Positions 1 to 3,024 of a DNA stretch of 48,150 bases are shown here, one piece after another. Numbering within the stretch: the first letter of the stretch is position 1; every line of letters begins with the position of its first letter. Both the position numbers and the translations under genes were made by a program. Under the pieces are notes generated by a model that saw only the letters and a list, made by a program, of their open reading frames with translations, was not told the origin of the DNA and ran no database searches. Origin of the DNA: Acidobacteriota bacterium (GTDB taxonomy: Bacteria; Acidobacteriota; Blastocatellia; HR10); contig JAUQQC010000005.1 of assembly GCA_030550025.1 (NCBI GenBank), positions 202,857 through 251,006 of the forward strand. Direction: 5' to 3'.

Positions 1-903
1 GAATTCCTTCCCCAGCTCTCGGGCGACGTCGTGGTCCAACGTCTGATTGATCGTCAGGAAGAGGCGTCGCGCGACGAGCTTCTGGAGCACATCGCGAGGC
101 GCGACCTGCAATTTCTCGGCGAACTCGCGCACGGTCACCGTCTCCGGCAACCGGATCGGTTTCAGCTCCTTCACGGGCGGGGGAGGCGGAGAAGCGGTCA
201 CTACCGGAGCGTCCACGCTCGGGGCGGGCTTCTTCGCAGGCGCAGGCATCGGACGACGAATGCGTCGTCGGCGCTCGTCTCGCGGAGGGACGTAGACGGT
301 GCTCGCTAAATCGGGAGCGGGCGTGGCCATCGAAGCGCTGAGCGCGCTCGAAGGTCGCAGGATGATGACCTGAGGCTTAGACGGGCGTGCCTTCGGCTCC
401 GGCGCGGCTTCCGGGGCCGGACGCGCTTCTTCAGCGGGAGCGGCCGTCGGGGCTGCCGCCATCGGAGGTGGCGATGGCGGTGGAGGCGGAGCCACTGGTT
501 TCAACGGCATTACCTTCATGCGCGGCTCCGTCTCGACCTTCGGCCTCTCCAGTCGCTCGGAGACCTGGCGCGCTTCTTTGCCAACGGTCGCTCGACTGAC
601 ATCCGGCTTCACCGGCTCGCGCTCTCTCGGCGGGAGCTCCTCGGGCACTTCCTTCGGTGGCGGACTCGGCACCGTGGCTTGCTCCGGCGCCACCTCCTTG
701 GCCCGTTTCACCAACCGCGGTCGGATCTGCGAGACCTCCGGCACCTTGGCATAATGCCGCGAGCGAATCTGCTCGGCCTGCTCCTCGGTCAACGAATTCG
801 AGGGCACGCTCACATCGAAGCCGAGCTGCCGCGCCTCCTCGATCACGCGGCGTGGCTCCAACTTCAACTCTCGGGCCAATTCATAAATGCGTATCTTCTT
901 CAT
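1..903 (-). CDS. infB: Translation initiation factor IF-2, N-terminal part (truncated by window edge)
   Basis: The first 301 residues of IF-2 are visible; the G domain and everything after it lie beyond the left edge. The protein opens MKKIRIYELARELKLEPRRV, the usual IF2_N helix pair. A long Pro/Glu/Ala-rich linker follows. A second IF2_N-like segment lies near the edge (TVREFAEKLQVAPRDVLQKL). IF-2 brings fMet-tRNA to the 30S subunit and drives subunit joining by GTP hydrolysis. The start codon is preceded by GGAGGGG. It is the third gene of rimP-nusA-infB, 44 bases after nusA; ylxR and rplGA-type small genes sometimes found between nusA and infB are absent. Confidence 0.95.
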   Translation of the reverse strand, partial: MKKIRIYELARELKLEPRRVIEEARQLGFDVSVPSNSLTEEQAEQIRSRHYAKVPEVSQIRPRLVKRAKEVAPEQATVPSPPPKEVPEELPPREREPVKPDVSRATVGKEARQVSERLERPKVETEPRMKVMPLKPVAPPPPPSPPPMAAAPTAAPAEEARPAPEAAPEPKARPSKPQVIILRPSSALSASMATPAPDLASTVYVPPRDERRRRIRRPMPAPAKKPAPSVDAPVVTASPPPPPVKELKPIRLPETVTVREFAEKLQVAPRDVLQKLVARRLFLTINQTLDHDVARELGKEF

Positions 904-947
904 CCCCTCCCCTTCCCCCGAGTTGGCATTCTCCTTGCGCGAGCGCC

Positions 948-2273
948 TCACGATCGCTCCTCCGATGCGGATGCGCTCGATGCCGGCTCAAGAGGCCGCT
1001 CCCCCACGATCGCCTGCGCAGCCGCTCTCACTTCCGTCGCTTGAGCGAGGCTCCAATCCAGCTTCTCCGCCAGCTGATCCACATCGGAGCTGGCGATCTG
1101 TTCGACCGTCGCGAATCCTTTGGCCTTGAGCTGTTCCACCATCGTCTCGGGAAGACGTCCTTCGAGGGCGCTGAGCGGCGTTCCCCCTCCGGATACCAGT
1201 TGCTCCATCTGCGCGGCCACCTCCCGCTTCAACTCCGACTCGCTCCGAATGTCAATGTGCCAGCCTACGAGCTTCACCGCCAAACGCACATTCTGCCCCT
1301 GCTTGCCGATAGCGAGCGAGAGCTGATCATCATCCACGATGACCTCCAAGCGACGCGCCACCGGATCCACGATGTGAACGCGATTCACTCGGGCGGGGCT
1401 CAGCGCGCTGGCCGCGAACTTCGCCGGATTCTCCGACCACTCGATGATATCGATCTTCTCCCCGTGCAATTCGCGGATGACGGCCTGCACGCGGCTCCCC
1501 TTCATCCCCACGCACGCGCCGACCGGATCCACATCAGGATCACTCGAGGCTACGGCGATCTTAGCGCGTTCGCCCGGATCGCGCGCACAGGCCTTGATCT
1601 GAACCGTCCCATCGTAGATCTCCGGGACCTCCAGTTCGAAGAGCCGCATGATCAGCTCAGGAACCGTTCGCGAGAGAATGATCTGATGTCCTGCCCCCCG
1701 ATTGACCTCCTTGATCACCGCGCGGATGCGATCGCCAACCGAATACCGCTCGGCCTTCGACTGTTCGGAGCGTGGCAAGAGGGCCTCCACGGTCCCCAGA
1801 TCCACGATCATGTCCCCCTTCTTCTCGAAGCGCTTCACGAAGCCACTGACCAACTCGCCGACGCGCCCGACATATTCCTCGTAGATGCGCTGGCGTTCGG
1901 CCTCGCGCACCTTCTGCATGATGGTCTGCTTGGCCATCTGCGCGGCGATGCGCCCCAGGCCCTCAAACGGCCGCGGGATCTCCACGATATCGCCGACCTC
2001 CGCCCCCTCGACCAGCTGATTCGCTTCCTGCAGACTGATCTCCCGGGCCGGATCGGTCACCTGCTCGACGACAACCTTCCGAGCGAAGATCTCGATCTGT
2101 CCCGTCTCCGGATTGTACTCGACGTCAATATCCTCGCCCGTGGCCTTGAACTGTTTCTCATACGCCCGGCGGATGGCCTCCTTGAGAGCCGTGATGACCG
2201 CCTCCGGGTCGATGTTCTTCTCCCGGCTGAGCAGCTCAATGCTCTCGGCAATCGGGCTTCTCGGATTCGCCAT
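948..2273 (-). CDS. nusA: Transcription termination/antitermination factor NusA
   Basis: A 441-residue NusA that binds RNA polymerase near the RNA exit channel and modulates pausing, hairpin-dependent termination and antitermination. The order is an N-terminal polymerase-binding domain (from about residue 5, SIELLSREKNIDPEAV), S1, then two KH domains (GACVGMKGSRVQAVIREL, later LAIGKQGQNVRLAVKL). There is a single C-terminal helix-hairpin-helix repeat (about 370-425) and a short Ser/Ala/Glu tail. One C-terminal repeat makes it shorter than the 495-residue E. coli protein. The start MANP was chosen because GAGGGGGAAG lies just upstream; an in-frame ATG five codons earlier lacks this. It lies between rimP and infB, and NusA may act on the terminator-like hairpin ahead of rimP. 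Confidence 0.96.
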   Translation of the reverse strand: MANPRSPIAESIELLSREKNIDPEAVITALKEAIRRAYEKQFKATGEDIDVEYNPETGQIEIFARKVVVEQVTDPAREISLQEANQLVEGAEVGDIVEIPRPFEGLGRIAAQMAKQTIMQKVREAERQRIYEEYVGRVGELVSGFVKRFEKKGDMIVDLGTVEALLPRSEQSKAERYSVGDRIRAVIKEVNRGAGHQIILSRTVPELIMRLFELEVPEIYDGTVQIKACARDPGERAKIAVASSDPDVDPVGACVGMKGSRVQAVIRELHGEKIDIIEWSENPAKFAASALSPARVNRVHIVDPVARRLEVIVDDDQLSLAIGKQGQNVRLAVKLVGWHIDIRSESELKREVAAQMEQLVSGGGTPLSALEGRLPETMVEQLKAKGFATVEQIASSDVDQLAEKLDWSLAQATEVRAAAQAIVGERPLEPASSASASEERS

Positions 2274-2373
2274 ACTCTTCCCCCTCATGCCGAACGATTC
2301 GGGGAGAGGCTCCGACCCGATCGGGTGGAGGCCCGCCCCCTCGATCTCCCCCCTGGTTTTCGGATGGGTCCCG

Positions 2374-2856
2374 TCACCTCGCTCGGGACTTCCCCCACTC
2401 GAACGCCAGATGCGCTTTGCGAATCTTCGGGTAAGGGATCACCACCTCGCGCTTCAGCTCACGCTCGCGCACGGTCACTTCGTCTCCTTCGATTCCGAGC
2501 AACTCGCCCACGAAATGTCGCCGCCCTTCGAGCGGCTCCCACGTCTCGATCCTCACGACGCGACCAGCGAACCGCTGGTAATCGCTCCGCCGATATAATC
2601 CTCGCTCGATGCCCGGCGAGCAAACCTCCAACACGTACCGATGTGGGATCGGATCCTCGACATCCAACACGACCCCGATGCGCTCGCTCACCCGGGCGCA
2701 GTCATCTACCGTGACCCCACCGGGCTTATCCACAAGGACGCGCAGGATCATCCCCTGTCGCCCCCCGGCAATCTCCACGTGCACCAGCTCGAAGCCCAGG
2801 GCGGCGATGACCGGCTCGATGATCTCCGTCACGCGCTCGACAAGACCCACACCCAT
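2374..2856 (-). CDS. rimP: Ribosome maturation factor RimP
   Basis: A 160-residue RimP, needed for 30S assembly. The N-terminal domain carries the family pattern for this position (EPVIAALGFELVHVEIAGG, then LRVLVDKPGGVTVDDCARVS). The central VLEVCSPGIERGL motif is diagnostic, and the C-terminal Sm-like domain ends with IPYPKIRKAHLAFEW. The start MGVGLVERV is chosen because GGGGGAGT precedes it and because the reading frame upstream runs through a hairpin and T-tract. It is first in rimP-nusA-infB. Its leader holds an intrinsic-terminator-like structure directly against the ribosome site, described separately. Confidence 0.94.
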   Translation of the reverse strand: MGVGLVERVTEIIEPVIAALGFELVHVEIAGGRQGMILRVLVDKPGGVTVDDCARVSERIGVVLDVEDPIPHRYVLEVCSPGIERGLYRRSDYQRFAGRVVRIETWEPLEGRRHFVGELLGIEGDEVTVRERELKREVVIPYPKIRKAHLAFEWGKSRAR

Positions 2857-2864
2857 ACTCCCCC

Positions 2865-2889
2865 AAAAAAAAGTGGGCTGACCGCCCAC
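2865..2889 (-). terminator. Intrinsic terminator/attenuator-like hairpin with T8 in the rimP leader
   Basis: On the minus strand: GTGGGC-GGTCA-GCCCAC followed by eight T. This is a perfect 6-bp GC-rich stem with a 5-base loop and an uninterrupted U-tract, the form of a Rho-independent terminator. The T-tract ends exactly where the rimP Shine-Dalgarno GGGGGAG begins, so it cannot serve an upstream minus-strand gene (none exists; the next gene is divergent). It must act within the leader of rimP-nusA-infB, either as an attenuator or by influencing access to the ribosome site. Confidence 0.75.
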
Positions 2890-2929
2890 GTCCGCATCAC
2901 CCCCACACCCGACTCGAATGAGAAGTATA

Positions 2930-2958
2930 ATGATAGCCCGCTCATCTGATGAAATCAA
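2930..2958 (-). promoter_or_regulatory. Predicted sigma70-type promoter of rimP-nusA-infB
   Basis: On the minus strand, TTGATT, a 17-base spacer and TATCAT. The expected start of transcription is near 2923, giving a leader of about 65 bases that contains the hairpin and T8. No experimental support. Confidence 0.5.
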
Positions 2959-2994: not shown

Positions 2995-3024
2995 TTGACA
3001 ATGGAGATGACCAGCCCCTACCAT
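2995..3024 (+). promoter_or_regulatory. Predicted sigma70-type promoter of nuoA
   Basis: A consensus TTGACA, an 18-base spacer and TACCAT. The -10 box ends only 8 bases before the ATG at 3033, so the transcript would start at or within a few bases of the start codon (leaderless). It is divergent from, and not overlapping, the rimP promoter. Confidence 0.5.

Follow-up and report, generated by a model that had tools for sequence, protein, structure and literature searches.

At one end of the window (the whole 48,150-nucleotide stretch of Acidobacteriota DNA analysed here), the domains of RimP, NusA and IF2 are encoded in that order on the minus strand (Pfam), as a rimP-nusA-infB operon. The 101 bases before it (2958-2858, minus strand) run from a sigma-70-like promoter through to a Shine-Dalgarno sequence (Table 1). 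The -35 and -10 hexamers are separated by a spacer of 17 bases, and are followed by a hairpin with a perfect 6-bp stem and a 5-base loop, and by a U-tract. A sequence-only reading of this DNA had placed a promoter, hairpin, T8 and GGGGGAG before rimP in about 100 bases, and each part was found there on the minus strand. It had also noted no upstream minus-strand gene that would need the terminator, which holds: the upstream neighbour, which encodes NADH dehydrogenase chain 3 (Pfam), is divergent and lies on the plus strand, and thus no minus-strand gene ends at the hairpin. Transcription starting about 7 nt past the -10 would make a terminated RNA with a predicted length of about 58 nt. The divergent NADH dehydrogenase genes have a promoter-like sequence of their own, TTGACA-18-TACCAT, on the plus strand at 2995-3024 of the window.

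Table 1. Features of the rimP leader and the operon that it precedes (positions in the window).
Feature	Position	Strand	Remarks
-35 TTGATT	2953..2958	-	rimP-nusA-infB promoter; hexamer common to 5/5 genus members and neighbouring families
-10 TATCAT	2930..2935	-	kept in relatives
Terminator hairpin GTGGGC-GGTCA-GCCCAC (rimP-leader stem motif)	2873..2889	-	conserved in class; unique in genome
U-tract T8	2865..2872	-	T-rich tail kept in relatives, often interrupted
Shine-Dalgarno GGGGGAG	2858..2864	-	abuts U-tract; such contact only in this genus
Probable rimP start codon GTG	2848..2850	-	inferred from alignment with four genus relatives and 7-nt spacing
rimP, first gene of the operon	2374..2856 (to 2850 if GTG start)	-	Pfam RimP_N 5.2e-27, RimP C-terminal domain 1.9e-16
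nusA	948..2288	-	Pfam NusA_N 5.7e-39, KH_5, S1
infB, cut by window edge	1..951	-	Pfam IF2_N 1.9e-23

The start of rimP had been read as the ATG at 2856-2854. The aligned first codon in four genus relatives is a GTG, two codons inside the ATG at 2856 (2850 here). GGGGGAG is 7 nt from this GTG, whereas it is 1 nt from the ATG. Given the relatives' aligned GTG and this difference in spacing, translation of rimP probably begins with the GTG at 2850. The T8 ends 8 nt before the ATG and 14 nt before the GTG.

The hairpin is not a chance occurrence, and it is its uniqueness and conservation, not the terminator scan or the folding energy, that carry the case. A loose terminator scan found 2 candidates in 2 kb, against 1.2 +/- 1.1 expected from shuffles, and the leader, folded as a single sequence, has no excess stability over its shuffles (z 0.7 to 1.3). 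At gathering thresholds, none of the Rfam covariance models matched the window, and nothing relevant was retrieved from 14 loci up to E 5; as the motif is short, both searches have low informative value. The pattern GTGGGCN3-9GCCCACTTTTT, however, matches once in the 3.17-Mb genome, at the rimP leader. Among the matches listed for GTGGGN4-14CCCACTTTTT in 58 relatives, 30/33 are rimP leaders as judged against rimP coordinates; of the remaining three, two fall outside rimP leaders and the third is a palindrome that was read from the opposite strand. GGGTG..CACCC, a control hairpin matched in composition, gave 10 scattered matches. A recurring match, GTGGGCTCTTACCCCACCTTTT, looks like a piece of RNase P RNA and was left out of the leader counts.

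Comparison of the rimP leaders of relatives, as the sequence-only reading had proposed, found GTGGG..CCCAC with a T-rich tail in 46 of 56 leaders from the class and a wobble variant in 2 more (48/56). When all 1024 possible 5-base stems are ranked by how often they occur before rimP, GTGGG comes first (46/56), followed by register-shifted versions of this hairpin; with single-base shuffling of the leaders, any stem reaches 3 at most. In the wider phylum, 50/63 motif matches lie within 400 nt upstream of rimP in genomes with tabulated rimP coordinates, a sample drawn from the matches listed and biased towards genomes that have them. The alternative that the hairpin arose by chance, or terminates some other gene at its 3' end, as might be supposed from similar sites being about as frequent in shuffles in the loose scan, is refuted by the cross-phylum conservation, together with the divergent upstream gene and the one match per genome, and has a negligible probability.

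The motif is also widespread beyond the phylum. An untargeted pattern scan of bacterial species genomes returned at least 84 sites in at least 80 loci. Of the 84 sites listed, 55 stand before a same-strand rimP, in taxa including Acidobacteria, alpha-, beta- and deltaproteobacteria, Nitrospira, Rokubacteria, Marinimicrobia and others, and nusA is in reach at 52 of the 56 rimP-adjacent sites among those listed. Several of the sites without rimP are too near the end of their locus to judge.

The GGG/CCC pairs are invariant in the class and Chloroflexota sets, but this was a condition of the search and is informative only together with the ranking against all stems. The outer stem pairs change on both sides and stay paired, for example from A-T to G-C or C-G, and in Chloroflexota from T-A to G-C. 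Such compensated changes fit a selected hairpin; they are not proof of sequence recognition by NusA. Across the class, the leaders are short, with no larger element in common, but in this genus a G-rich stretch ahead of the stem could base-pair with its 3' arm. One genus (g16; seven genomes, L047-L050, L052, L053 and L055) has kept rimP-nusA and lost the hairpin, and three relatives from the same family (L040, L043 and L051) have kept the hairpin with a broken U-tract (e.g. CCTTGATTT). These cases, like the unexceptional folding of the single leader, weigh against the reading as an attenuator.

As judged from its sequence, the hairpin with its T8 is a clear copy of the rimP-leader, an attenuator that has already been described. 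Naville & Gautheret (2010; PMC2965389) called the rimP-leader 'the most ubiquitous transcription attenuator', and defined it by a GGGc(..)gCCC stem and a U-stretch 4-130 nt from the gene, with no visible antiterminator; NusA was named as the best candidate for the sensed protein, and RimP feedback was considered too. The element described here shares with it the place before rimP-nusA-infB, the stem, the U-stretch and the specificity of the motif for the operon, and its distance to the gene falls inside the published range with either start codon (8 or 14 nt). An antiterminator is likewise not visible, except that the G-rich stretch of this genus could pair with the stem. It differs in the contact between U-tract and Shine-Dalgarno seen in this genus, and in that the motif, placed before rimP in that paper, is also found here before nusA in rimP-less Chloroflexota (see below).

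NusA feedback has been addressed in two other bacteria. According to the summary in a review (PMC12288461, for Mondal et al. 2016), NusA of B. subtilis is autoregulated by NusA-stimulated termination in the 5' leader. Both systems have an intrinsic terminator in the 5' leader of the nusA operon, with antiterminator-free feedback proposed here as well. However, NusA dependence was shown in B. subtilis, as that review reports it, and is only predicted here; in addition, the B. subtilis leader is 180 nt long (cited in PMC2965389), against the approximately 58 nt predicted here. In S. agalactiae (PMC4448216), a leader RNA ends 31 nt after the start, before rimP-nusA-infB, and NusA feedback was proposed. 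The likeness to the present case lies in the very short leader RNA, the predicted intrinsic terminator before rimP and the proposed feedback, although the 31-nt RNA was observed, whereas the length here is a prediction.

Which protein is sensed can be approached through genomes in which the genes of the operon have come apart. In two Chloroflexi from the untargeted scan, the hairpin lies directly before nusA, and no rimP was detected in either genome. Searches of 121 Chloroflexota genomes detected rimP in 15 of them and nusA in 114. Of the 92 Chloroflexota nusA leaders that were read, 90 belong to genomes in which no rimP was detected, and 76 of these 90 carry GTGGG..CCCAC within 260 nt, with a T-rich, often interrupted tail. 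GTGGG again ranks first of 1024 stems in the Chloroflexota nusA leaders. No description of this form, directly before nusA and with an interrupted U-tract, was found in the literature searched. In a class relative without detected rimP (G032, locus L084), the promoter and hairpin are kept before nusA. In the stretch before nusA of this genome (minus strand, about 2420-1880), every frame contains stops and only a weak remnant resembles rimP (VSSPGINCELY, E 0.048); its rimP thus appears to have decayed. In another genome (G412), nusA and infB share a contig at a distance of about 858 kb; nusA has the hairpin, and no such hairpin with a U-tract was found in the infB region. Chloroflexota cases in which nusA and infB are on different contigs (e.g. 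G414 and G366) are contig-edge cases and were left out of these separations.

In these comparisons, which are an addition of the present analysis, the element remains beside nusA when rimP is missing or has decayed, or when infB lies apart, and NusA is thus the most likely sensor. On balance, the 'rimP-leader' may really be a nusA leader, that is, the GGG/CCC hairpin may be an element that responds to NusA and accompanies nusA in different phyla, including the Chloroflexota form. Counting against a strict rule of this kind, no such hairpin was found within 1500 nt upstream of nusA (less at contig ends) in 24 rimP-less genomes of other classes.

The same attenuator with RimP or IF2 as the sensed protein is improbable. 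Both proteins are encoded in the operon, RimP feedback has been considered before (PMC2965389), and the 24 rimP-less genomes without the hairpin speak for this reading. However, sensing of RimP is at odds with the 76/90 Chloroflexota nusA leaders that have the hairpin where no rimP was detected, and with its retention beside the decayed rimP of G032, and sensing of IF2 with the location of the hairpin in G412, at nusA and far from infB.

With NusA as the sensor, RNA polymerase would have transcribed the hairpin within the first 60 nt or so, and NusA bound to the polymerase would favour formation of the hairpin and pausing on the U-tract. When NusA is plentiful, the transcript would end in the leader; when NusA is scarce, the polymerase would read through into rimP-nusA-infB. 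No antiterminator would be required. NusA attenuation is supported by deep conservation, by what others have reported for this element (PMC2965389, PMC4448216 and PMC12288461) and by the hairpin staying with nusA. Thus, it is probable that the element is the rimP-leader attenuator of rimP-nusA-infB with NusA as the likely sensor, the response to NusA in this bacterium being a prediction. The NusA feedback put forward in the sequence-only reading is therefore well founded as to leader attenuation and the likely sensor, but the idea is already described and is not new. The present case adds another lineage to what was called the most ubiquitous predicted bacterial attenuator, together with comparative evidence on which protein is sensed, and makes the recognition of the hairpin by NusA directly testable.

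It is as improbable as sensing of RimP or IF2 that the element is a constitutive partial terminator, which would hold transcription of the operon at a low fixed level with no feedback. The hairpin and T8 do look like a strong intrinsic terminator, but it is the sequence of the stem, and not its strength alone, that is conserved across phyla, which a fixed terminator does not need. Moreover, feedback by NusA is published for the same element in B. subtilis, as reported in the review cited above.

Very unlikely is attenuation coupled to ribosomes in this genus, in which the hairpin would be blocked, and read-through allowed, by a ribosome starting at an upstream ATG or by a 30S subunit bound to the Shine-Dalgarno. 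In this genome, the stem is preceded by GGGGGTGATG. The ATG (2897-2895, minus strand) follows GGGGGTG and stands 8 nt before the stem, and this ATG and a GGGG-rich stretch are kept in 5/5 genus members, in which the U-tract also abuts the Shine-Dalgarno. However, neither feature is present in most of the class, most leaders of family f8 start the stem 14-17 nt past the -10, with almost no room for a leader peptide, and the open frame after the ATG is not in one register among the five genus genomes, its frame relative to rimP differing between them. Coupling of the U-tract to 30S binding, also suggested in the sequence-only reading, fails as a general mechanism: contact of the U-tract with the Shine-Dalgarno is limited to this genus, and the distance from hairpin to gene varies widely elsewhere in the class, with the hairpin up to 184 nt from the aligned rimP start. 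A conserved leader peptide was rejected as well, as the stem-proximal ATG is a trait of the nearest groups.

Some leaders carry further features. In Chloroflexota (L234-L263 and L268-L327), where the hairpin directly precedes nusA, the U-tract is often broken, as in TTTTCTTGTTG. The short motif GCTTGC or GCTTAC turns up repeatedly just past the -10, near the expected transcription start, in families f4, f5, f8 and f9, and is present in 22/48 leaders (60 bases before the stem). A second small hairpin (e.g. GATGCGT..ACGTATC), differing in sequence between groups, seems to lie upstream of the terminator hairpin in L022, L037, L041, L042 and L045 (family f5), L056 and L009. Just upstream of rimP in L034 (genome G055), a different hairpin, TAGGCG..CGCCTA, followed by ATTTTGTTT, replaces the usual stem, and is perhaps a case of structure kept without sequence.
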